A stretch of DNA of 64,000 nucleotides, from NCBI RefSeq assembly GCF_900141755.1, contig NZ_LT670844.1:7164501-7228500 (forward strand), in the 5' to 3' direction. A program made the position numbers and the translations under genes. Below, in pieces: positions 31,261 through 58,398 of this stretch. The DNA is from Bradyrhizobium lablabi (GTDB taxonomy: Bacteria; Pseudomonadota; Alphaproteobacteria; Rhizobiales; Xanthobacteraceae). Under the pieces are notes generated by a model, which saw nothing but the letters and a program-made list of their open reading frames with translations, did not search any database and was not told where the DNA came from. How positions within the stretch are numbered: position 1 is the first letter of the stretch; every line of letters starts with the position of its first letter.

Positions 31261-31785
31261 TCAGGGCGAGGCCTGCGTGAAATCCTGATCTGAGGTGGAT
31301 GCCTCGCGCGGGATGCGGATCACGACAACACCATGGTTCAGCGCCTGGTGACACGAGTTGCAACCGTCCGTAAGATCGGCATAGGCCTTGTCGAATCCAG
31401 CATCGTCTTTCGACTGGATCGCGCTCGCGAGTTCCGTGAACGGTTGGTCCGTAACGGAGGTGATCATGGCCGGAACGGACATATCGTGCTCTGACGGATG
31501 GGCCTGACCGAGACGCTTGAAGGCGCCTTTCAGATTCCCAAGCTCGTAGGCGGCGAAGGCCCAATTCTTTTGCTGCGCGGCCCGCCAAAGCCTTCGATGT
31601 CGCGGCTGGATCGTCGCGATCATCATGTCACTGATGCTGGGCAGATATTGAGCGGTTTGAGACTTGGGCAATTCCTGCGCTCGCACGTCGCCGTGCGGGG
31701 TAGGCAATGCCACGACAACAGCTGCAGCCGCAGAAATCGCGAGAACGGCGGCGGCGAGCCGGTGAAGGCGGTCAAGTATTTTCAC
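31261..31785 (-). CDS. Periplasmic monoheme c-type cytochrome (c'/c556-like)
   Basis: The 174-residue product has a signal peptide (MKILDRLHRLAAAVLAISAA, cleavage after VRA) and a four-helix-like body (DMMIATIQPRHRRLWRAAQQ, then AAYELGNLKGAFKRLGQAHP, ITSVTDQPFTELASAIQSKD). A single haem-binding site CNSCH near residue 145 sits close to the C-terminus, as in cytochromes c' and c556. Helices, not a class-I fold, dominate. It is divergent from the sulfite dehydrogenase gene at 32024 and shares the intergenic region with the predicted regulatory boxes, so it may carry electrons in the same pathway. Start: ATG at 31785. Confidence 0.8.
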   Translation of the reverse strand: MKILDRLHRLAAAVLAISAAAAVVVALPTPHGDVRAQELPKSQTAQYLPSISDMMIATIQPRHRRLWRAAQQKNWAFAAYELGNLKGAFKRLGQAHPSEHDMSVPAMITSVTDQPFTELASAIQSKDDAGFDKAYADLTDGCNSCHQALNHGVVVIRIPREASTSDQDFTQASP

Positions 31786-31836: not shown

Positions 31837-31881
31837 ATGCTAACGGTCGGCGAAGTGCGGAGCCATTAAATTGCGGTTTAA
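31837..31881 (-). promoter_or_regulatory. Predicted regulated promoter of the cytochrome gene
   Basis: On the minus strand: TTAAA-CCGCAA-TTTAA (31881-31866), immediately followed by TGGCTC, 17 bases, then TAGCAT (31842-31837), ending 51 bases before the cytochrome ATG. The same arrangement is seen at 31932, 33675, 34513, 36985 and 58398. Confidence 0.5.
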
Positions 31882-31931
31882 GAAGTTCACTTGGAACTGA
31901 GACGCGATGAGGCGGAGCGGGCAGGTCGATC

Positions 31932-31976
31932 CTAAACTCGTATTTAATTGAGCAAACCGTGAAGAAACGTGATGTT
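31932..31976 (+). promoter_or_regulatory. Predicted regulated promoter of the sulfite dehydrogenase operon
   Basis: CTAAA-CTCGTA-TTTAA (31932-31947) abuts TTGAGC, then 17 bases and GATGTT (31971-31976), 47 bases before the sorA-like start. The 25 bases from GAT to GAG match the box at 33675 at 21 positions or so. Confidence 0.6.
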
Positions 31977-32023
31977 GCTCGCATCCTTTGTCGATGAACG
32001 GCATTGATCTTCCGGAGGGGTAA

Positions 32024-33259
32024 ATGACTGAACACGTCGCTCTTCGCTACGCGGTCACTCGACGGCAATTATTGGGCGCTGCCGGTGTTGGAGCGTTGGC
32101 GCTCGCAAGACCGTCCTGGGCAGAAACGACGATCAACCTTCCGCTTCCCGATGGTCCGGATGAGCGGGCGATCACGACCGCCTTTCCTCAGAAGGGCCCA
32201 ATGATCCTGCAGCGGACCCGTCCTCCGCTGTTGGAGACGCCGTTCGAGGTTTTCGACAAGGGCGTATTCACGCCCGCCGATCAATTCTATGTGCGCTGGC
32301 ATTGGGCCGTCATTCCAACCGATATCGATGTTGGAAAATTCAGCCTGACCGTGCGCGGCCACGTAAATCAGACATTGACGCTATCGTTGAACGACATCCT
32401 GCATGGCTTGCCGAGCGTCCAACTCTCCGCGGTGAACCAGTGTTCTGGCAACTCGCGCGGCCTCTTCCAGCCACGGGTGACCGGTGGTCAATGGGCGAAC
32501 GGCGCCATGGGCAATGCGCAGTGGACCGGGGTGCGGCTCAAGGACGTGCTGGACAAAGCCGGCGTGAAGCCGGGTGCGGTGCAGGTGCGGTTCAAGGGCC
32601 TGGACGAGCCGGTGGTGGCGGATGCGCCGCATTTCATGAAATCGCTGGATATCGACCACGCGCGCGATGGCGAAGTGATGATCGCCTATGCCATGAACGG
32701 GGAGCAATTGCCGTTGGTGAACGGGTTTCCGCTGCGGCTGGTGGTACCCGGCTGGTACGCGACCTATTGGGTGAAGATGCTGTCCGACATTGAGGTGCTG
32801 GATCAGCCCGATACGAATTACTGGACCAAAGTGGCCTACACCATTCCCGACACGCCCCACGCCAGCATCAAGCCTGGCGAAACAGACGTGAAAATGATTC
32901 CAATCAATCGGATGGTGCCGAGATCCTTTGTCACCAACATTCCCTCAGGCCAGAAGTTGAAAGCGACGGTCCCGACGACATTGCGCGGCATCGCGTTCGG
33001 TGGCGACTGTGGCGTGGAAAGCGTCGACTACTCGATCGATCGCGGCCAGAGCTGGCGTTCGACCAAACTCGGAAAAGACGAGGGCAAATACAGCTTTCGG
33101 CAGTGGCAAACGCAATTAACGCTGCCTGCACCCGGTGAATATGCCCTCATGGTCCGCTGCACCAACAGCAATGGCGTGGCGCAGCCGGACACACCAAACT
33201 GGAACCCCGCCGGCTTCATGCGCAACGTCGTGGAGTCCGTGAACGCGTCAGCGGTTTGA
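32024..33259 (+). CDS. sorA: Sulfite dehydrogenase catalytic subunit, SorA-like molybdoenzyme
   Basis: The 411-residue product belongs to the sulfite oxidase family. Its Tat signal, TRRQLLGAAGVGALALA, exports the folded molybdenum-cofactor protein. The cofactor-binding domain includes FYVRWHWAVIP, the molybdenum-ligating Cys in NQCSGNSRG and FPLRLVVPGWYATYWVKML. The C-terminal dimerisation domain has GDCGVESVDYSIDRGQSW. It oxidises sulfite to sulfate in the periplasm and would pass electrons to the cytochrome encoded 12 bases downstream. GGAGGGG precedes the ATG. The presence of a dimerisation domain distinguishes it from MsrP/YedY. Methionine-sulfoxide or other S-oxide substrates cannot be excluded. 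Confidence 0.85.
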   Translation: MTEHVALRYAVTRRQLLGAAGVGALALARPSWAETTINLPLPDGPDERAITTAFPQKGPMILQRTRPPLLETPFEVFDKGVFTPADQFYVRWHWAVIPTDIDVGKFSLTVRGHVNQTLTLSLNDILHGLPSVQLSAVNQCSGNSRGLFQPRVTGGQWANGAMGNAQWTGVRLKDVLDKAGVKPGAVQVRFKGLDEPVVADAPHFMKSLDIDHARDGEVMIAYAMNGEQLPLVNGFPLRLVVPGWYATYWVKMLSDIEVLDQPDTNYWTKVAYTIPDTPHASIKPGETDVKMIPINRMVPRSFVTNIPSGQKLKATVPTTLRGIAFGGDCGVESVDYSIDRGQSWRSTKLGKDEGKYSFRQWQTQLTLPAPGEYALMVRCTNSNGVAQPDTPNWNPAGFMRNVVESVNASAV

Positions 33260-33271
33260 CGGAGTATCACG

Positions 33272-33601
33272 ATGTCTCGCAACCTCCTGTCATGCCTCAT
33301 TTTGCTCGGTGTCGCGTCCACGCCTCTCGCCGCGCGCGCCGCTACACCGTTCGAACTGAAGTCGGTGAAGATCGATCTGCCCGATAGCGACAAGATGTTC
33401 GAAGGTCCGGGATCGGACGCCATCAACAACAACTGCCTTGCCTGTCACTCCGCCGGAATGGTGTTGACCCAGCCGGCTTTGTCGAAGCAGGCCTGGACCG
33501 CGGAAGTCAACAAGATGATCAACAACTACAAGGCTCCCGTGGCGCCCGAGGATGTTGGGGCGATCGTCGAGTATCTGGCTAATACCAAAGGCGCGAAATA
33601 G
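33272..33601 (+). CDS. sorB: SorB-like monoheme cytochrome c
   Basis: The 109-residue product has a signal peptide (MSRNLLSCLILLGVASTPLA, cleavage after ARA) and one haem site CLACH in INNNCLACHSAGMVLTQPAL. The Met of VNKMINNYKAPV is the likely sixth ligand. It matches the small cytochrome that forms a heterodimer with SorA in known bacterial sulfite dehydrogenases. The 12-base gap indicates one operon with 32024. Confidence 0.85.
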   Translation: MSRNLLSCLILLGVASTPLAARAATPFELKSVKIDLPDSDKMFEGPGSDAINNNCLACHSAGMVLTQPALSKQAWTAEVNKMINNYKAPVAPEDVGAIVEYLANTKGAK

Positions 33602-33674
33602 CGGTCCGCTCGTCGGCTCCGTCATCGCGCGCATTGCGCGTGATGCGGCGCCGATTTGAAAGCGATTCAAGATT

Positions 33675-33719
33675 CTAAATCCGTATTTAGTTGAGGGCAT
33701 GGAGTTGGGCCTTCATGTT
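33675..33719 (+). promoter_or_regulatory. Predicted regulated promoter of the DUF305 gene
   Basis: CTAAA-TCCGTA-TTTAG (33675-33690) abuts TTGAGG, then 17 bases and CATGTT (33714-33719), 49 bases before the ATG at 33769. It is the most perfect palindrome of the set. Confidence 0.6.
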
Positions 33720-33768
33720 CGAGAGGGAAGCGCCAGGCGCGCAATGATTGAGTCTGCTCGGAGGTAAG

Positions 33769-34320
33769 ATGATTTTGTTCTCGCGCTCCTTCATCCGCAA
33801 ACGTGCGATCTCCTTCGCAACAACTGCGTCGGTCGCGGTAGTGTCGCTTGGCATGGCCCAGGGACCAACTTCGGCGCATCGAATTCGCGCGGCGACGCCG
33901 ATCCAGTACGTCGCGGACCGGACAGACAATTCCAGCGAAGCGTCGTTCCTGTCGGAAAACGAGTCCGCGATGAGCCAGATGATGACCGACATGATGGTCA
34001 AGCCGACCGGCGATATCGATCGAGACTTCGTGGCGATGATGATCCCGCATCATCAAGGCACGATCGACATGGCGAAGGCCGAACTCAAATACGGTCAGAA
34101 CGAGCTGCTCCGCCGTCTGGCGAAGGAAATCATCGCCAACCAGCAGCAGGAGATCACGGTGATGCGGCTGGCCGTCGACGACGAACGGCCGCTGCCGTCA
34201 ACTTCGCCGGCGCAGCCAGCCGCTTCCAGTGCGCCCCGGATGTCAAAAGAGCCGATGCCGCATGAGATGACGTCCCGTGAGACCATGGGGATGTCTCATG
34301 ATGCCAAGCCGCGTGATTAA
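33769..34320 (+). CDS. DUF305 (CopM-like) periplasmic protein
   Basis: The ATG at 33769 follows CGGAGGTAAG. The 183-residue product begins MILFSRSFIRKRAISFATTA, a signal peptide. The DUF305 core is DIDRDFVAMMIPHHQGTIDM, then AKAELKYGQNELLRRLAKEI and NQQQEITVM; the HH pair in PHHQG and Met residues are conserved in this ferritin-like family, one member of which (CopM) binds copper. The tail (PMPHEMTSRETMGMSHDAKP) is Met/His-rich and could bind metal. A role in periplasmic copper or redox stress is plausible, since a two-component system follows. Confidence 0.8.
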   Translation: MILFSRSFIRKRAISFATTASVAVVSLGMAQGPTSAHRIRAATPIQYVADRTDNSSEASFLSENESAMSQMMTDMMVKPTGDIDRDFVAMMIPHHQGTIDMAKAELKYGQNELLRRLAKEIIANQQQEITVMRLAVDDERPLPSTSPAQPAASSAPRMSKEPMPHEMTSRETMGMSHDAKPRD

Positions 34321-34512
34321 GATCGACGGCTGATCATGAACCGCGCTGTCGCATGCTGCCTTTTGGCGCCATGCCGACCGTGGTGGTGGCGTGGCGCATC
34401 CGTCGCGGGCGCGGCGACGTCCGGTCCGTGTTTTCCGGTGGGCCAACCCTGGCCTGGGCCTATTCGGCGGAACAATTCTCCAGCACCGTCCCGGTTGCCG
34501 ATCCTGCCGATC

Positions 34513-34557
34513 TTAAAACCCTATTTAGTGGTGCGGCCAATTTTTCGAGCCTATGTT
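34513..34557 (+). promoter_or_regulatory. Predicted autoregulated promoter of the two-component system
   Basis: TTAAA-ACCCTA-TTTAG (34513-34528) abuts TGGTGC, then 17 bases and TATGTT (34552-34557). Transcription from here would give a leader of about 240 bases before the response-regulator ATG at 34801. No gene was identified in 34321-34800; the long open frame upstream of 34801 reads as low-quality protein. Confidence 0.5.
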
Positions 34558-34800
34558 TTTCAGGAGCGGCCCACCGCGCTTTGCCCCCGGAGGCGGTGTT
34601 CAGATGGCCGTAGAGTGGACGGCGTCGCCACGCCTTATTGCCCCCGAGTAGGGCGGGCGGCGCTGTCCGACTCCACGAAGGATGAAATTCATCATTTGCA
34701 GGCGGTCAGCATTATGGCATTGGTCTCAAGCAAGCGAACGGTTTCAGAGGGACGAGGCGCGATCGCAGCGAATGCTTTGGCCGCAATCGAGAATAAATTG

Positions 34801-35478
34801 ATGGCAAAAGTGCTTCTCATTGAGGACGATAGCGAAACAGCCGAGGAAATCACGGCCGAATTGGCCGATCGCGGTTTTGAGGTGGATTGGTCGGCCGACG
34901 GCATCGAAGGCCTCGACAAGGCCCGTGCGACCCGGCCGGATGCCATGATTGTCGATCGCCTGTTGCCAGGAATGGATGGCCTCACGGTCATCGAGGCGCT
35001 GCGCAAGGATCAGGTGCGCACCCCGGTGCTGGTGCTAAGCGCGCTTGGCGCGGTAGACGACCGCGTACGCGGATTGCGGATGGGAGGCGACGACTATCTG
35101 ACCAAGCCCTTCGCCATCGTGGAACTGGTTGCCAGGGTAGAGGCGCTGCTGCGCCGGCCGGTCGAATCGCGCGAGACGACGCTGCGGGTCGGGCCGCTTG
35201 AGCTCGATCTGATCGAGCGTACCGCCAAGCGCGGCGATCGGGTCATCGATTTGTTGCCACGCGAGTTTCGACTGCTTGAATATATGATGCAGCGCAGCGA
35301 TCAGTTGCTGACGCGGGCAATGCTGCTCGAGGAGGTCTGGAATTATAAATTCGTTCCTGCGACCAATCTTGTAGACGTGCACATGGGCCGTCTACGCCAT
35401 AAAGTGGACGGGCCCGATGAGGTCCAGATGATTCATAATGTCCGCGGTGCCGGGTTCATCCTTCGTTCGGGATCGTGA
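34801..35478 (+). CDS. OmpR-family response regulator
   Basis: The frame is open from 34336 but the domain begins at MAKVLLIEDDSETAEEITAE, so the ATG at 34801 is the start (225 residues). The receiver shows IEDD, phosphoacceptor Asp in AMIVDRLLPGMDG, Ser in LVLSAL and Lys in DDYLTKPFA. The winged helix has LLPREFRLLEYMMQRSDQLL and the recognition region TNLVDVHMGRLRHKVD. This is the CusR/QseB-like subgroup. The kinase gene follows after seven bases. The repeated 11-bp-spaced boxes in its own leader and at neighbouring genes make it the prime candidate regulator of the sulfite dehydrogenase, cytochrome, DUF305 and BA14K genes. Confidence 0.88.
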   Translation: MAKVLLIEDDSETAEEITAELADRGFEVDWSADGIEGLDKARATRPDAMIVDRLLPGMDGLTVIEALRKDQVRTPVLVLSALGAVDDRVRGLRMGGDDYLTKPFAIVELVARVEALLRRPVESRETTLRVGPLELDLIERTAKRGDRVIDLLPREFRLLEYMMQRSDQLLTRAMLLEEVWNYKFVPATNLVDVHMGRLRHKVDGPDEVQMIHNVRGAGFILRSGS

Positions 35479-35485
35479 TTTTCAG

Positions 35486-36925
35486 ATGACTCCGGCGGCG
35501 GTGCGCATCGGCTGGCGTCGAGCAGGTATACCGGGCGGCGATACTCCGATGCGTCAACCGCAGTTCATACGCTCGAGCACGTTCCACTGGGCCTTGATGG
35601 TGGCCGGCGTATTCGCCGTTTTCATCATGGTGCTGTTCGGATTCATTTACTGGAAGATCGATGACTACCTGATCGCACGATCCGACCGCGTGATCACCGT
35701 GGAGCTGGACGGCATATCCGGCCTGTCGCCCCAGCGCAGGCTCGAAGCAATCGACGAGAAGTTGAGACAGGATCCTCGAGGGGTACAGCTCGCGGCGATA
35801 TTTGCCGCCGACGGTCATCGGATTATCGGCAATATTGATAGCCTGCCGCCCAACCTGCTGATCGACGCGCCGGCGCAGAGCACCGACATCATCCGGACGG
35901 ATCGAGGCACCAGGGAAAGTCAGGTTGTCCGCGCGATCGCGCGGCGGATGCGAAACGGCGATGTGCTGGTGCTTGGGCGCAACGTCGATGAAACTATGGA
36001 AATATCGCACGTTGTTGGTCAGGCGCTCGCGCTCGGTCTGTTGCCGGCCTTCCTTCTTTGCCTGCTGGCGGGCGCCTGGCTGAGCGTACGCGCGCAGAGA
36101 CGGGTGGAAGAGGTCAACCAGCGGGTCCGTCGCATCATCGCCGGCGATCTGCGCGAGCGGCTGCCGCATCGTGACGTCGACGAACCGTTCGACAGGCTCG
36201 CCGTCATCGTCAACGGCATGCTCGACGAGATGGAGACGATGATCCACGCGCTCGCCGGCGTCGGCAACGACATCGCCCACGACCTGCGAACGCCGCTGAC
36301 GCGGGCGCGGCTCGCTCTCGAGCGCGGGCGCACCAACGCAACCACCCTCGAGCAGCTTCAGACCGTAGCCGACAAGGCGATCGCGGGCATCGACCAGGCG
36401 CTGACGATCATCACCGCACTGCTGCGCCTTGCGGAGATCGAAAACAGCCGGCGTTCCTCGGGCTTCGGCAGCGTCCCGGTGCATGAACTGCTGCGGGAGG
36501 TGGGCGACATCTATGAACCGATTGCCGAAAACAAGAACATCGTCCTCCAGGTCCAGGCTACACAGCGGCTCAATCTGCGCGGCGATCGGGATCTGCTGAT
36601 CGAGGCGGTTGCCAACCTGGTCGACAACGCCATCAAATTTACCCCCGAAGGTGGCAAGGTGGACATTGAACTGCTGCGGGGGAAGAACGAAACCATCGTG
36701 CGCGTGACCGATACCGGCTGTGGCATCAGCGAACAAGACCGCGAGGCCGTGCTGCGGCGGTTTTACCGCTCGGACAAGATTCGAAACACGCCGGGCGTCG
36801 GTCTTGGCCTCAACCTGGTGGTCGCGATCGTAAAATTGCACGGTTTCCGGTTGGCGATACATCCGGGCCCGGCTGGCTGTGTCGAGATCATCTGTCCCGA
36901 TCGGCAAGACGACTCAATCGCGTGA
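35486..36925 (+). CDS. Sensor histidine kinase (CusS/QseC-like)
   Basis: The start is uncertain: an ATG at 35486 (479 residues) or at 35549 (MRQPQFIRSS, 458 residues); the latter begins just before TM1 (FHWALMVAGVFAVFIMVLFG). A periplasmic domain of about 130 residues, TM2 (VVGQALALGLLPAFLLCLLA), HAMP, a HisKA domain with IAHDLRTPLTRARLALERG and a HATPase with NLVDNAIKFTPEGG, DTGCGI and GVGLGLNLV follow. It would sense a periplasmic signal and phosphorylate the regulator at 34801. No metal-binding His/Met cluster stands out in the sensor domain. Confidence 0.85.
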   Translation: MTPAAVRIGWRRAGIPGGDTPMRQPQFIRSSTFHWALMVAGVFAVFIMVLFGFIYWKIDDYLIARSDRVITVELDGISGLSPQRRLEAIDEKLRQDPRGVQLAAIFAADGHRIIGNIDSLPPNLLIDAPAQSTDIIRTDRGTRESQVVRAIARRMRNGDVLVLGRNVDETMEISHVVGQALALGLLPAFLLCLLAGAWLSVRAQRRVEEVNQRVRRIIAGDLRERLPHRDVDEPFDRLAVIVNGMLDEMETMIHALAGVGNDIAHDLRTPLTRARLALERGRTNATTLEQLQTVADKAIAGIDQALTIITALLRLAEIENSRRSSGFGSVPVHELLREVGDIYEPIAENKNIVLQVQATQRLNLRGDRDLLIEAVANLVDNAIKFTPEGGKVDIELLRGKNETIVRVTDTGCGISEQDREAVLRRFYRSDKIRNTPGVGLGLNLVVAIVKLHGFRLAIHPGPAGCVEIICPDRQDDSIA

Positions 36926-36984
36926 TCGCAGGCATTTTTCTCCGAAGCCGACGTGTGTTCTCAGGCTAAATCCAATTTAGCTCC

Positions 36985-37028
36985 CTGAATGCCAGTTTAA
37001 TGGCGCTGGCAAGCGATCATCCTAGATT
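36985..37028 (+). promoter_or_regulatory. Predicted regulated promoter of the BA14K gene
   Basis: CTGAA-TGCCAG-TTTAA (36985-37000) abuts TGGCGC, then 16 bases and TAGATT (37023-37028), about 110 bases before the ATG at 37137. Just upstream lies an additional palindrome CTAAA-TCCAA-TTTAG (36966-36980) with a 5-base spacer, so two sites may be present. Confidence 0.45.
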
Positions 37029-37136: not shown

Positions 37137-37454
37137 ATGACCAGAATAAAATTCCTCAGTGTGGTGGCCATTGTGTCAGCGATAACCGTAGCGCCGGTAT
37201 TCGCGCAGGCGGCGATCCAGGAGCCGGGCGCGTTCGCATTCTACCATCCCGATGCTGATGTCCTAAATGGCGGCCGGCCCACGCCGGCTGCGGCCGCAGA
37301 TGCCATGGCCTCGGTACGATCGGGCAATCGCGACGCCTTTGCCTCCATGGACGGCAGCGGGAACAGCTCCTCGTGTGCCCGGCGTTACCGCTCCTTTGAT
37401 CCGGCCTCGGGTACCTACCTTGGCCATGATGGTTACCGCCATCCGTGTCAGTGA
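37137..37454 (+). CDS. BA14K-family exported protein
   Basis: The ATG at 37137 starts a signal peptide (MTRIKFLSVVAIVSAITVAP, cleavage after VFAQA). The 105-residue product ends with the BA14K hallmark, CARRYRSFDPASGTYLGHDG then YRHPCQ (consensus C-x2-RYRS(F/Y)DP-x-(S/T)GT(Y/F)-x-G-x-DG-x-RH-x-C). In Brucella this family is described as immunoreactive and lectin-like. The two Cys probably pair. An upstream predicted operator links it to the two-component system before it. Confidence 0.8.
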   Translation: MTRIKFLSVVAIVSAITVAPVFAQAAIQEPGAFAFYHPDADVLNGGRPTPAAAADAMASVRSGNRDAFASMDGSGNSSSCARRYRSFDPASGTYLGHDGYRHPCQ

Positions 37455-37764
37455 GGCGCCTTACGAGCGGGAGAGGGCGGCCAAGCGGGCCGTTCTCGCG
37501 CGCGGACGGTAACTCGAAAAAATCCGCAATCCCCTTCCAAAAACCTGGAACAAAAGCTCGGTCACGGCATTATGGGCGTTATGCGTGTTTGCGCACGCAG
37601 AACGGTCGGCGCCGGAATGGCGACGACTGCCGTAGGCGGAAGCGTGCGGACCATAAATTTTTTTTTATTGGTCCCGCCCGCGCGTTATGTGTGATGTTGA
37701 ACGCTGTCTGAAGCTTGAACTTCCTGTCAGCTTTCAAATTCGACAGTTCGGGAAAGGTCCTTAT
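37455..37764. other. Upstream region of the formate dehydrogenase operon
   Basis: No gene is seen. It contains a hairpin TGCGTG-TTTGCG-CACGCA (37582-37599), a T-run (37661-37668) and GGAAAGG near 37750 that serves the first fdh gene. No FNR/FixK box (TTGAT-N4-ATCAA) was found. Confidence 0.45.
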
Positions 37765-37974
37765 GTGAAGGGACGGCCCTTGACCAGCGTACGTCGGCGC
37801 GACCTACTTCGCCTTGCGATCGCCGGGGCTGGAGCGACGGCCGTAAGCACGGTGGTGCCGGAGCCGGCGGCAGCCAAACCCGTCGATCTCAATGACAAGC
37901 GCAAGGCCCGCTACCACGCCGATTCCGCAGAGGTTCAAGACTTCTACCGTGTCAACTCTTATCCAGCTCGATAA
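37765..37974 (+). CDS. Formate dehydrogenase-region TAT-target protein
   Basis: The GTG at 37765, behind GGAAAGG, starts a 69-residue product: (M)KGRPLTSVRRRDLLRLAIA, with a twin-arginine motif and hydrophobic core, then AAAKPVDLNDKRKARYHADS and EVQDFYRVNSYPAR. This matches the short family described as formate dehydrogenase region TAT target (TIGR02811 by recall), always found next to fdhA. It may act in assembly or as an accessory subunit. It is 9 bases upstream of the large subunit, so translation is coupled. Confidence 0.85.
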   Translation: MKGRPLTSVRRRDLLRLAIAGAGATAVSTVVPEPAAAKPVDLNDKRKARYHADSAEVQDFYRVNSYPAR

Positions 37975-37983
37975 GGGGGAACG

Positions 37984-40953
37984 GTGGTGCTGATCAAAAA
38001 ATCGGACCGTCATCGAGATCGCGGACGCCTCGCCGGCGTAGACGCAAGTGAGCTAGCAAGTGAGTCAAACGGTCATCTGGATCGCCGTACTTTCTTGAAG
38101 CGCTCCGGCGTTACCGCCGGCGCGCTGGCGGCGCTCGGCAACCTGCCGCTAGGCGGCGTGCGTAAAGCGGAGGCCGGTCCGCCACCTCCGCCGGGCGCAA
38201 CAGTTACCACCCGCAAGAATGTCTGCACGCATTGCTCGGTCGGTTGCTCGGTGATCGCCAAAGTCGCCAACGGCGTGTGGATCGGCCAGGAGCCTGATTA
38301 CGACAGCCCGATCAACCGTGGATCGCATTGCTGCAAGGGTGCGGCGGTTCGCGACGACGTGCTGAGCACGCGCCGCTTGCGTTACCCGGTGAAGCTCGTG
38401 AACGGCCAATGGACCCGCCTTTCGTGGGAAACGGCTATCAACGAGATCGGCGATAAGCTACTGGAAATTCGTCAGAAGTCGGGGCCGGATTCGGTGTACT
38501 GGCTGGGCTCGGCCAAATTTACCAATGAAGCCGCCTACCTCAACCGCAAGCTTGCGGCCTTCTGGGGCACCAATAATTCCGACCATCAGGCGCGGATCTG
38601 CCATTCCACCACGGTCACAGGCGTCGCCAATACCTGGGGCTATGGCGCGATGACCAACAGCTACAACGATATCCGCAATGCCAAGACCATTATGGTGATG
38701 GGCGGCAATCCGGCAGAAGCGCATCCGGTTTCGCTGCAGCATATTCTCGAAGGCAAGGAACTCAACCGCGCCAACATGATCGTGGTCGATCCGCGAATGA
38801 CACGGACCGCCGCGCACGCAACCGAATATGTTCGCGTGCGTCCGGGCACCCATATCGCCACGATCTACGGGATGCTCTGGCACATTTTCCAAAATGGCTG
38901 GGAGGACAAGGAATTCATCCGCCAGCGTGTCTACGGCATCGACGACATCCGCAAACAGGCGGCAAAATGGACGCCGCACGAGGTCGAGCGCGTCACGGGC
39001 CTGCCCGAAGCGCAGGTCAAGCACGTCGCCGAAACCTTCGCCAAGCAAAAGCCGGCGACGCTGATCTGGGCGATGGGACAAACCCAGTTCACGACCGGCA
39101 CCGCGAATGTCCGTGCCAGTTGCATCCTGACTCTCGTCACCGGGAATGTCGGATACGCCGGCGCCGGCGCCAACATTTTTCGCGGCCACACCAATGTGCA
39201 GGGCGCTACCGATCTCGGCCTCGATGTAACGACGCTGCCGCTCTATTACGGTCTCGCCGAAGACGCCTGGCGGCATTGGTGCAGGGTGTGGGAAGTCGAT
39301 TACGAGTGGATGAAGTCACGCTTCCCGAGCAAGACCCTGATGGAAACGCCGGGCATTCCGTCTACGCGCTGGTTCGACGCGACGTTGCTGCCGAAGGACC
39401 AGGTCAGCCAGCCTGATAATGTGCAGGCGATGTTCATCATGGGACATGGCGTCAACACCATTACGAGGATGCCGGAAGCCAAGCGCGGCATCGAGAAGCT
39501 CGAGCTGTTGGTGGTCTGCGATCCCTATCCGACCGCCTGGTCGGTGCTCTCGGAACGCAAGGACGGCATCTATCTTTTGCCGGCCTGCACCAGCTTCGAG
39601 ATGGATGGCTCGCGCACCGCGTCGAACCGCTCGCTGCAATGGGGCGAGAAGATCGTGGACCCGGTTTTCGAATCGAAAAACGACTACGACACGATGTATA
39701 TGCTTGCCCGCAAATTCGGCTTCGCCGACCGCATGTTCAAGAACATCAAGGTCGAGAATGGCGCGGTATCGGCGGAGGATATCCTGCGCGAGATCAATCG
39801 CGGCGGCTGGTCCACCGGTTATTGCGGGCAATCGCCGGAACGGCTCAAGGCCCACATGAAGAACCAGGCCAAGTTCGACCTGGTCACTTTGCGGGCGCCG
39901 AAGGATGACCCGGAAGTTGGCGGCGAGTATTACGGCCTACCGTGGCCATGCTGGGGAACACCGGAGTTCAAACATCCGGGTACCCCGATCCTTTACAACA
40001 CCAGCCTGCCGGTGAAGGAGGGCGGCGGCACGTTCCGTGCGCGGTTTGGCGTCGAACGCGTCGCCAAGCGCAAGGTGATTGAAAACGGACAGGAGGTCGA
40101 GAAAGAAGAGCACGTTAATCTTCTCGCCGAGGGCTCCTATTCGGTCGGGTCCGAAATCAAGGACGGATATCCCGAGTTCACCCTCGGCGTGCTCAAGAAG
40201 CTCGGCTGGGACACGGACCTGACGCCGCAGGAAATGGAGACGATCCAGCGCGTCAATCCGGCCAATCCCGACGCAGTATCCTGGTCGCTCGACCTTTCCG
40301 GCGGAATCCAGCGGGTGGCGATCGAGCACGGTTGTTCGCCCTATGGCAACGCCAAGGCACGCATGATCGCCTGGAATCTTCCCGACCCGATCCCCGTCCA
40401 CCGTGAGCCGATCTACACGCCGCGCCCTGACCTCGTCGCCGATTATCCGACATTGCCGGACGCCAAGCAGTTCCGCGTACCCAATATCGGCTTTAGTGTG
40501 CAAAAGGCCGCCGTCGACAGGGGCATCGCCAAACAGTTCCCGCTAATTCTGAGTTCCGGCAGACTCGTCGAATACGAAGGTGGCGGCGAAGAGACGCGCT
40601 CCAACAAGTGGCTCGCGGAGTTGAAACAGCACATGTATGTCGAAATCAATCCGGCGGATGCAGGCGAGCGCGGCATCAGGGACGGCGGATGGGTCTGGGT
40701 GACCGGACCGGAGAATAGTTCAAGGACGCGCATGAAGGCGTTTGTGACCGAGAGGGTTGGCAAGGGCCTCGCCTGGATGCCCTATCATTTCGCCGGCTGG
40801 TTTGAGGGCACAGATTTGCGCGCCAAATATCCCAAGGGCTCCGATCCGATCGTGCTCGGCGAGAGCGTGAACACGCTCACCACCTACGGCTACGATCCCG
40901 CCACCGGCATGCAGGAACCGAAGGCGACCCTATGTCAGATCAGGGCAGCGTGA
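37984..40953 (+). CDS. fdhA: Formate dehydrogenase large (molybdopterin) subunit, Cys type
   Basis: The 989-residue product begins at a GTG with a Tat signal (HLDRRTFLKRSGVTAGALAA), so the mature enzyme faces the periplasm. The N-terminal [4Fe-4S] site is CTHCSVGC...GSHCCKG (about residues 80-116). The metal ligand in SDHQARICHSTTVTG is Cys206, where E. coli FdnG/FdhF have selenocysteine. The chain ends with the molybdopterin dinucleotide-binding domain (NPADAGERGIRDGGWVWVTG). It oxidises formate to CO2 and H+, passing electrons to the iron-sulfur subunit downstream. Whether Mo or W is used cannot be told. Confidence 0.92.
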   Translation: MVLIKKSDRHRDRGRLAGVDASELASESNGHLDRRTFLKRSGVTAGALAALGNLPLGGVRKAEAGPPPPPGATVTTRKNVCTHCSVGCSVIAKVANGVWIGQEPDYDSPINRGSHCCKGAAVRDDVLSTRRLRYPVKLVNGQWTRLSWETAINEIGDKLLEIRQKSGPDSVYWLGSAKFTNEAAYLNRKLAAFWGTNNSDHQARICHSTTVTGVANTWGYGAMTNSYNDIRNAKTIMVMGGNPAEAHPVSLQHILEGKELNRANMIVVDPRMTRTAAHATEYVRVRPGTHIATIYGMLWHIFQNGWEDKEFIRQRVYGIDDIRKQAAKWTPHEVERVTGLPEAQVKHVAETFAKQKPATLIWAMGQTQFTTGTANVRASCILTLVTGNVGYAGAGANIFRGHTNVQGATDLGLDVTTLPLYYGLAEDAWRHWCRVWEVDYEWMKSRFPSKTLMETPGIPSTRWFDATLLPKDQVSQPDNVQAMFIMGHGVNTITRMPEAKRGIEKLELLVVCDPYPTAWSVLSERKDGIYLLPACTSFEMDGSRTASNRSLQWGEKIVDPVFESKNDYDTMYMLARKFGFADRMFKNIKVENGAVSAEDILREINRGGWSTGYCGQSPERLKAHMKNQAKFDLVTLRAPKDDPEVGGEYYGLPWPCWGTPEFKHPGTPILYNTSLPVKEGGGTFRARFGVERVAKRKVIENGQEVEKEEHVNLLAEGSYSVGSEIKDGYPEFTLGVLKKLGWDTDLTPQEMETIQRVNPANPDAVSWSLDLSGGIQRVAIEHGCSPYGNAKARMIAWNLPDPIPVHREPIYTPRPDLVADYPTLPDAKQFRVPNIGFSVQKAAVDRGIAKQFPLILSSGRLVEYEGGGEETRSNKWLAELKQHMYVEINPADAGERGIRDGGWVWVTGPENSSRTRMKAFVTERVGKGLAWMPYHFAGWFEGTDLRAKYPKGSDPIVLGESVNTLTTYGYDPATGMQEPKATLCQIRAA

Positions 40954-40966
40954 GAGAGCGGAACCA

Positions 40967-41569
40967 ATGGCCCGTATGAAATTCCTTTGCGACGCGGACC
41001 GCTGCATCGACTGCAACGCCTGCGTCACCGCTTGCAAGAACGAGAACGAGGTGCCCTGGGGCATCAACCGCCGGCGTGTCGTCACCATCAATGACGGCAA
41101 GCCCGGCGAGCGCTCGGTATCGATGGCCTGCATGCATTGCACCGATCCCCCCTGTGCGGCGGTCTGCCCGGTCACCTGCATTTACCCGACTGAAGACGGT
41201 ATCGTGCTGCATTCCAAGGATCTGTGCATCGGCTGCGGCTATTGCTTCTATGCATGCCCGTTCGGCGCGCCGCAGTACCCCAAGGTCGGCAATTTCGGTT
41301 CGCGCGGCAAGATGGACAAGTGCACCTATTGCGCCGGCGGCGGCGGGCCGGAGGCTCCCGGTAGCGCCGAGGAGTTCGAGAAATACGGCTCGGACCGTTT
41401 TGGCCAAGGTAAGTTGCCGCTATGTGCGGAGATGTGTTCCACCAAATCGCTGCTCGCGGGTGACGGCGATATCATCGCCCAGATCTACAAGGAACGAGTC
41501 CTCAAGCGCGGCTATGGCTCCGGTGCGTGGGGCTGGATGACGGCGTATCGCGAGGACGTCGAAGTCTGA
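40967..41569 (+). CDS. fdhB: Formate dehydrogenase iron-sulfur (beta) subunit
   Basis: The 200-residue product has four cluster motifs: CDADRCIDCNACVTACKNEN, MACMHCTDPPCAAVCPVTC, LCIGCGYCFYACPFG, and KCTYC with LPLCAEMCSTKSL. This is the FdnH/FdoH four-[4Fe-4S] pattern, which wires the large subunit to the membrane cytochrome b. It lacks the C-terminal membrane helix of E. coli FdnH. The ATG follows AGAGAGCGGA and lies 13 bases after fdhA. Confidence 0.92.
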   Translation: MARMKFLCDADRCIDCNACVTACKNENEVPWGINRRRVVTINDGKPGERSVSMACMHCTDPPCAAVCPVTCIYPTEDGIVLHSKDLCIGCGYCFYACPFGAPQYPKVGNFGSRGKMDKCTYCAGGGGPEAPGSAEEFEKYGSDRFGQGKLPLCAEMCSTKSLLAGDGDIIAQIYKERVLKRGYGSGAWGWMTAYREDVEV

Positions 41570-58040: not shown

Positions 58041-58253
58041 GGCTGCCGGCCGGCCAGCGGCTGGCTGCGATGGAGTCAAGACGGCACCCGCCCTCGATAC
58101 AGCCGCGGCAGTGATCGCATCGCTGCTACCTTGCGAAATATTGCTCGGGGCAAAGTCGCCAAAAAGGATAGCGGCCGTACTGATGACGGCCACAAGTGCG
58201 GTCACCACCACGGGTATCAAGTCGTCGCGCCGATCGTTTGCTTGAGTGCGCAT
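58038..58253 (-). CDS. Small single-pass membrane protein, 71 aa
   Basis: The ATG at 58253 starts MRTQANDRRDDLIPVVVTAL, VAVISTAAILFGDFAPSNIS; a charged N-terminus (NDRRDD) is followed by one transmembrane helix and a Ser/Ala-rich tail. The frame is open further upstream, but this start gives a classic N-in anchor. NDRRDDLIPVVVTALVAVIS is a short conserved motif I associate with a widespread bradyrhizobial family. The stop codon lies inside the palindromic repeat. A predicted regulated promoter (58398-58355) precedes it. Confidence 0.7.
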   Translation of the reverse strand: MRTQANDRRDDLIPVVVTALVAVISTAAILFGDFAPSNISQGSSDAITAAAVSRAGAVLTPSQPAAGRPAA

Positions 58254-58354
58254 GGCCGATCCTGCTGCTTCCTGGGCCTCAATATGGGTTTGCCGTCCGT
58301 TGCCCCCAGCATGCGATATCGGAGCACCGAACCGCACGGGAACTATGAGAGAGA

Positions 58355-58398
58355 GATATAGCAGCGGTGCATGGAACGGCCATTAAATTGGCTTTTAA
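58355..58398 (-). promoter_or_regulatory. Candidate regulated promoter of the 71-aa membrane protein
   Basis: On the minus strand TTAAA-AGCCAA-TTTAA (58398-58383) abuts TGGCCG, then 16 bases and TATATC (58360-58355), about 100 bases before the ATG at 58253. The core CAATTTAATGGC is shared with the cytochrome promoter at 31881-31837. Confidence 0.4.

Follow-up and report, generated by a model that had tools for sequence, protein, structure and literature searches.

We analysed a 64-kb window (positions 7164501-7228500 of a single 7.91-Mb contig) of the Bradyrhizobium lablabi genome, in which promoters around a two-component system carry a shared DNA element. Judged from its letters, this element is a 16-bp inverted repeat, YTAAAT-N4-ATTTAR, which abuts the -35 region and is sometimes doubled 20 bp upstream. 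It is very probably the operator of the OmpR-family response regulator encoded at 34801-35478, which would bind it as a symmetrical dimer and exert class II activation of its own operon and of about 20 further sites. The regulon and the box are new, whereas the regulator is of a known kind. An original prediction, made from the window, had described the element at five promoters and at a sixth candidate (58398); we found it at all six, with the letters predicted, and also found the (T/C/G)ATGTT form of the -10 at the three promoters concerned (GATGTT at sorA, CATGTT at the DUF305 gene, and TATGTT at the regulator). The identical spacing attributed to three promoters does exist but is shared by four: counted by hand from the -35 (TTG/TGG) to the -10, it is 17 at the cytochrome, sorA, DUF305, and regulator genes and 16 at the BA14K gene and the sixth box.

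To describe the geometry of the box, we made a de novo count of all words composed of a 4-mer, a gap of 0-14, and a second 4-mer in the non-redundant regulator upstream regions (52 of 81 kept). The commonest word, TAAA-N6-TTTA, occurred in 32 of the 52 regions, while the maximum for any word in 20 shuffled sets was 12, and it is an exact inverted repeat. Moreover, over 103 non-redundant sites from relatives, the column overlap as an inverted repeat was 1.00, 0.75, 0.99, and 0.93 for the core pairs and 0.51-0.85 for the flanking and inner pairs, while an 11-bp direct reading failed at the third half-site base (A/G on the left, T on the right), where the overlap was 0.02 against 0.75 for the inverted reading. 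This column comparison is partly circular, since the looser of our two search patterns had already barred T at the third base, a circularity that the de novo word count avoids; the strict pattern left that base free, and all six of its matches have A. Thus, the 11-base tandem half-sites of PhoB type originally proposed gave way to a dyad, and head-to-tail half-sites 10-11 bp apart, as in a PhoB/OmpR-type box, were not found. Among 101 sites (two of the 103 lay too near a locus end and were excluded), 12 had a second dyad at -20, against an expectation of 0.02; two of these 12 were also counted at -21. Three, one, and one sites had one at -59, -55, and -52, respectively, and three had a dyad 20 bp downstream. 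Two columns outside the matrix (40 and 43; 0.9 bit each) revealed a conserved -10 at a fixed distance from the box. With a transcript start about 7 bases beyond the -10, the dyad centre would lie near -43, the position of a class II activator.

The strict pattern YTNAAN6TTTARTTGAG had six matches in the 7.9-Mb genome (reversed-pattern control, 0), which lie ahead of sorA, fdhD, an fdhF/ydeP-like gene, and each of three DUF305 paralogues. The looser pattern YTVAAN6TTTARTKG had 24 matches against 9 for its control, so that some of the 24 are due to chance, and 14 of the 24 were clustered in a single stretch of 70 kb. To collect sites from relatives (190 matches, 103 kept as non-redundant), we used a matrix built from 16 of this genome's sites, and 75 of the 103 were used to build a sequence-only profile (R1), which includes no site from this genome and whose E-values are rough. 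R1 recovered 22 sites in this genome at E<=0.1, and 16 of these cluster around the regulator in the 78 kb from 7196347 to 7274111, about 1% of the chromosome. The matrix from the 103 relatives' sites scored the six window boxes at 23.1-30.3 bits and had seven matches of at least 20 bits in the window, while the reversed matrix had none even at 14 bits or more, and 200 column-permuted matrices gave a mean of 0.03 matches of at least 20 bits (maximum 2). In the position-weight-matrix scan, real sites far exceeded the reversed and permuted controls, and the box is very unlikely to be a chance match to random DNA.

The original prediction assigned the box to an OmpR-family regulator within the set, and this is supported by the conservation of the box at the regulator's own promoter and by the co-occurrence of gene and box. 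The regulator protein, read from an earlier start, matched PF00072 (86.5 bits) followed by PF00486 (Trans_reg_C, 78.7 bits), the domain order of the OmpR family. We scanned the loci of the best 80 of 203 regulator relatives, some of them near-duplicates, which belong nearly all to Bradyrhizobium, with Tardiphaga, three metagenome-assembled genomes (MAGs) of other or unnamed genera, Neorhizobium, and Agrobacterium in addition. In the 400 bp preceding the regulator, the best match was at least 18 bits in 66 of the 80 loci and at least 15 bits in 74, while none reached 15 with the reversed matrix (median 0.04 versus 24.0 for the real one); the 80 loci as a whole (1.59 Mb) contained 190 matches of at least 20 bits versus 0 for the reversed matrix. 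A box at the own promoter, from which autoregulation is predicted, spans Bradyrhizobium, a Xanthobacteraceae MAG, Neorhizobium, and Agrobacterium, and the regulators of the last two (72-73% identical) have a site upstream that scores 18.3 bits on the regulator's strand and 29.3 bits on the divergent strand. In these two loci (L171 and L172), a divergent gene (~580 aa, with what by eye looks like a twin-arginine signal) lies on the other side of the dyad, which may serve this gene as well as the regulator. In loci with a match of at least 18 bits, the regulator box was located 117-340 nt upstream of the regulator start (288 in the window), so that the predicted transcript would often have a long leader (34558-34800 in the window).

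A close relative of the regulator (at least 76% identity) was present in nine of 119 sampled genomes of the family; among the matches listed, the other family genomes had identities of at most 56%, and one genome had none. R1 at E<=0.1 detected sites in all nine genomes with the regulator and in none of 23 without it, these 23 having been hand-picked from 110 and being mostly large ones. Within the genus (117 genomes), 53 had both regulator and sites, one the regulator only, two sites only, and 61 neither (Fisher p=1e-29, ignoring relatedness).

Several observations weigh against this assignment. The matrix and R1 both trace back to 16 sites of this genome, since the relatives' sites in R1 were gathered with that 16-site matrix; moreover, at least three of the nine regulator-bearing family genomes (G105, G088, and G117) supplied training sites, as probably did further genus genomes, and the zeros in regulator-free genomes are the independent part of the co-occurrence evidence. 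In six of the 80 loci the best upstream match was below 15 bits, and two of the failing loci (L135 and L145) had a strong site farther upstream, ahead of a DUF305 gene adjoining the regulator. Four of the 23 regulator-free family genomes had one match each (E 0.2-0.7). Where a genome has a single match, this is mostly the promoter of the regulator itself, and the pairing is then near-trivial; 36 of 54 have two or more matches. The box of the cytochrome-like gene was absent upstream of its homologues (0 of 3 relatives' loci), so that this target may be strain-private. Among genus genomes, G132 carries the regulator with zero R1 matches, while G171 (one site) and G194 (four sites) have sites without a close regulator. 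G194 is hardly an exception, because a two-component system with 50% identity, which may belong to an older relative of the regulon studied here, sits among its sites. The single site of G171 (locus L272) is a copy of the promoter cassette described below, ahead of the back part of a truncated aminotransferase-like frame, and is perhaps a leftover. In G194, the 50%-identical regulator and its kinase (L264, 7485-9522, and L263) stand amid box-like sites and rpoH, cupin, and DUF305 homologues.

In the mechanism that we infer, a trigger acting on the kinase would lead to phosphorylated regulator, which would bind the 16-bp inverted repeat as a symmetrical dimer; since the right arm of the dyad touches the -35 (TGG or TTGAG), the bound dimer could hold region 4 of sigma and bring in RNA polymerase. 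This would switch on the regulator's own operon, in positive autoregulation, together with the promoters of sorAB, three DUF305 genes, genes for BA14K-type and small exported proteins, rpoH, oxalate decarboxylase, the fdhF/ydeP-like gene, fdhD, a cupin, a cyoA-like gene, and an RND pump. From the original proposal of activation by an OmpR/PhoB-family regulator, the OmpR-family owner and a site that touches the -35, as for an activator, were retained, while the PhoB-type direct repeat was not.

That proposal, in which 11-bp half-sites would form a direct repeat bound by a head-to-tail dimer as for PhoB and OmpR, draws on the membership of the regulator in the OmpR family, whose archetype OmpR binds direct repeats (PMC7380067), and on the agreement of three of five half-site columns at 11 bp (overlap 0.99, 1.00, and 0.68). 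We nevertheless consider it improbable, given the clash at the third half-site base (0.02 direct, 0.75 inverted), the A found there in all six strict matches, the exact inverted repeat that topped the de novo count, and the upstream copies, which are whole dyads at -20. A palindrome would suit many dimeric regulators, and a different one that travels with the two-component system could bind it, the response regulator being merely a target. The two of 117 genomes that have sites without a close regulator fit this idea, as do the 14 of 25 examined sites of one genome (G170) that lie in a longer cassette also found once in the regulator-free G171; the chance of it nonetheless appears slim to us in view of the own-promoter box across Bradyrhizobium, the Xanthobacteraceae MAG, Neorhizobium, and Agrobacterium, and of the 6-4-6 layout, which the box shares with those OmpR-family regulators that are nearest to this one and have been characterised, although no systematic search for another constant neighbour was made.

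It is extremely improbable that the pattern merely reflects an AT-rich core promoter (a UP-like element plus a -35) without any specific regulator. Its conserved positions, which touch the -35, are indeed exclusively A/T although the genome is rich in GC, but reversed and column-permuted matrices gave almost nothing, 61 of 63 regulator-free genus genomes had no site at E<=0.1, and second dyads occur at 20 bp.

The sites of this genome point to a broad set of targets. The proposal that sulfite oxidation, DUF305, and BA14K proteins answer to one signal stands as a prediction (site upstream in two of three SorA loci and 16 of 17 DUF305 loci of relatives; 11 BA14K loci), but these genes form only a slice of a larger regulon; these SorA and DUF305 loci include several near-duplicates and were nearly all chosen for their regulator, and the one DUF305 miss (L265) was an internal match whose gene start does carry a site. 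Further targets in this genome include RpoH (354 bits), oxalate decarboxylase (546), and an FdhF/YdeP-family oxidoreductase (973), all above cut-off, as well as FdhD, a cupin, an RND pump, other small exported proteins, and a CyoA-like subunit (COX2 20.7 bits, cut-off 22); a site was also present at genome position 438423, and that of a second bicupin resembling oxalate decarboxylase fitted the loose pattern, not R1. In E. coli, msrPQ and cyoA are among the targets of HprR/CusR. Among relatives, blastp of the downstream frame assigned 136 of the 190 matches: the regulator (61 loci), RpoH (17), DUF305 (14), BA14K (11), RND (9), a glycine-rich exported protein (6, with more by eye), oxalate decarboxylase (2), SorA (1), and a few others.

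A copper signal, suggested by the original mention of a copper-type DUF305 protein, was not supported, because the periplasmic part of the kinase (residues 61-185) contains no Cys (2 His, 2 Met), a composition without any hint of a metal site, and no copper operon was found among the examined targets: no copper ATPase or multicopper oxidase was found by Pfam among the first genes behind the sites, which do include one RND pump and three DUF305 genes of ambiguous bearing. The functions of oxalate decarboxylase, RpoH, and the YdeP-like, cyo-like, and exported proteins lead us to guess that the signal may be stress of the envelope, acid stress, or oxidative stress.

With a box that can be read and a list of predicted targets, a two-component system found in a large group of soil and nodule bacteria would no longer be an orphan. 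One switch would connect the oxidation of sulfite and the handling of oxalate and formate with a heat-shock sigma factor and with several unexplained small exported proteins (DUF305, BA14K). Shared regulation offers a way to test ideas on what the DUF305 and BA14K proteins do.

Within the window, whose features are listed in the table, the SorA-like protein scored 555.5 bits over 394 of 396 positions of the NCBIfam SorA model, under the equivalog cut-off of 600, and 168 and 42 bits against SorT and MsrP, respectively. By R1, the BA14K box (E=8.7) and the site of the third DUF305 paralogue (E=0.16) were weak in this genome. A link to formate dehydrogenase through the candidate at 37653 found little or no support: this candidate is a T-run without support from relatives, and the one L100 match was an artefact of a mis-placed gene start. 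Scans of the window for tRNAs and Rfam families gave no matches.

Table. Boxes, genes, and candidates in the window (bits for boxes are from the matrix of relatives' sites; E is from R1)
Feature	Position	Strand	Observations
Predicted exported protein	31261..31785	-	CxxCH motif present once (read by eye); unmatched in Pfam and NCBIfam
Box and -35 of cytochrome-like gene, TTAAACCGCAATTTAATGG	31863..31881	-	-10 TAGCAT at 31837-31842; 29.7 bits; E=0.0024
Box and -35 of sorAB, CTAAACTCGTATTTAATTG	31932..31950	+	TTGAG class; -10 GATGTT at 31971-31976; 30.3 bits; E=0.006
SorA-like sulfite dehydrogenase (molybdopterin oxidoreductase)	32024..33259	+	PF00174 184 bits; NCBIfam SorA 555.5 bits
SorB-like c-type cytochrome	33272..33601	+	NCBIfam SorB 80.7 bits, under cut-off 93
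Box and -35 of DUF305 gene, CTAAATCCGTATTTAGTTG	33675..33693	+	TTGAG class; -10 CATGTT at 33714-33719; 29.2 bits; E=0.0014
DUF305 protein (PF03713)	33748..34320	+	One of three paralogues in the genome with such a box upstream
Predicted autoregulatory box and -35 of regulator, TTAAAACCCTATTTAGTGG	34513..34531	+	-10 TATGTT at 34552-34557; E=5e-6, the best R1 match genome-wide
OmpR-family response regulator, proposed owner of the box	34801..35478	+	PF00072, PF00486; best NCBIfam model TIGR01387
Sensor histidine kinase	35486..36925	+	Two hydrophobic stretches, periplasmic part between them without Cys; TIGR01386 181 bits, cut-off 292.55
Second dyad, 15 bp, CTAAATCCAATTTAG	36966..36980	.	Starts 19 bp upstream of BA14K box; read by eye
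Box and -35 of BA14K gene, CTGAATGCCAGTTTAATGG	36985..37003	+	-10 TAGATT at 37023-37028; 23.1 bits
BA14K-like exported protein	37137..37454	+	PF07886
Weak seventh candidate, ATAAATTTTTTTTTATTGG	37653..37671	+	21.9 bits; T-run; ahead of formate dehydrogenase-like operon 37687-41569
Small protein, 99 aa, probable target of sixth box	58041..58337	-	No Pfam match
Sixth box, TTAAAAGCCAATTTAATGG	58380..58398	-	-10 TATATC at 58355-58360; 29.4 bits; E=0.0087; second dyad 20 bp upstream (by eye)

Two promoter classes were distinguishable among 81 of the 103 relatives' sites, the other 22 belonging to neither class and being left out. A TAnnnT/C -10 accompanied none of 20 sites with TTGA at the -35 and 47 of 61 sites with TGG (Fisher 3e-10). 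The TTGA class has CATGTT or a similar -10 and includes sorA, the fdhF/ydeP-like gene, and fdhD, and all 16 DUF305 sites have TTG. The same systematic difference was visible between TTGAG/CATGTT sites (31932, 33675, and L001-L006) and TGG/CTATNT sites (34513 and 58398). A good -35 may be compensated by a poor -10, or two sigma factors may be involved. RpoH was considered as a possible reader of the TTGAG class, although the rhizobial consensus sequences quoted in PMC4843759 (CTTGAA-N15-16-CCTATAT for RpoH1 and CTTGCC-N15-16-CCTATCT for RpoH2) fit the TGG-class -10 better than CATGTT.

The number of sites varied strongly across the genus. Genomes with a regulator at least 90% identical to that of the window (ten genomes, of which three carry the regulator twice) had 8-39 sites, while the other 44 regulator-bearing genomes had a median of two and a maximum of seven. 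The highest count, 39 in G170, overstates the independent sites, because 14 of 25 examined share at least 0.7 of a 25-nt spacer. This spacer belongs to a cassette of ~60 bp composed of box, -35, the conserved 25-nt spacer (TGTCGGCGGATTGCGAACCTACATC), and -10, with copies in G170 (L230-L254, L266-L285) and in this genome at 7787833 (L192). In 13 aligned copies (11 from G170, one from G171, and one from this genome), mean similarity was limited to ~60 bp around the box and the -10, with background on both sides. The spacer was found in eight of 117 genus genomes, seven in the group with at least 90% identity and the eighth being the regulator-free G171, and 16 of 20 spacer places carry a box of at least 18 bits. 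Most cassette copies with a clear downstream frame precede two unrelated families, a small FGxHxW-type protein or glycine-rich exported proteins, and one copy may precede a LysR-type gene (by eye).

The growth in cassette number is thus partly gene duplication and perhaps partly the spread of a bare promoter; movement of the bare promoter is made less sure by the two small-protein families behind most copies and by the truncated gene behind the G171 copy. As a tentative and rather doubtful reading, a local self-activating system would have grown to 8-39 sites in one Bradyrhizobium lineage, partly through cassette spreading, with two promoter classes possibly read by different sigma factors, one candidate being a self-controlled RpoH that would form a feed-forward loop. 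The pairing of gene and box over more than 100 genomes, together with the jump in site number in one lineage, makes this a clean natural case of regulon growth.

Among known systems, the nearest likeness is to AgrR of Cupriavidus metallidurans, an autoregulated OmpR-family regulator close to CzcR/CopR, whose box is also a 16-bp 6-4-6 inverted repeat (ATKACANNNNTGTMAT), with extra in-phase half-site repeats at some operators, a type II activator position at most promoters, and positive autoregulation (PMC7380067), a feature predicted here from the sequence. In contrast, the half-site letters differ (YTAAAT here), the extra repeat here is a whole dyad 20 bp upstream, and AgrR targets silver, copper, and czc genes, while the targets here are Mo-enzymes, oxalate and formate genes, rpoH, and small exported proteins. 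CopR of Pseudomonas syringae and PcoR of the E. coli plasmid pRJ1004 also bind an inverted repeat within 16 bp (PMC7380067), and the box studied here shares, as sequence architecture, the 6-4-6 inverted repeat beside the -35. Of 89 NCBIfam models matched, the best for the regulator was TIGR01387 (cztR_silR_copR), but at 215.3 bits it remained under the cut-off of 279.2, and no copper-resistance operon was found among the examined targets; we thus did not place it in the heavy-metal family, although by analogy it may work like a CopR-type regulator. The closest solved chain by sequence was a response regulator named PrrA (1ys6, 185 bits).

HprR and CusR of E. coli, likewise of the OmpR family, recognise a common DNA sequence and bind their own control region, but they are described as single-target regulators with H2O2 and copper as signals (PMC8249747). 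In Sinorhizobium meliloti, also a rhizobium, a periplasmic sulfite dehydrogenase operon with a cytochrome (sorT) is regulated by RpoE4, a sulfite-activated ECF sigma factor, in contrast to the two-component system and sorA-type enzyme found here (PMC3511301). The CorSR two-component operon of Myxococcus xanthus includes a DUF305 lipoprotein and a cbb3-type cytochrome, but CorR, from another regulator family, is a sigma-54 activator and the operon serves copper tolerance (PMC3707914). Among the titles listed by literature searches, with limited coverage and most subscription papers outside it, none was on the present system.

Box-like sites were also seen elsewhere in this genome, at positions 147473, 437478, and 7417448, with TTATCT 18 nt after TGG; those at 147473 and 437478 share downstream sequence and a small paralogous open reading frame.

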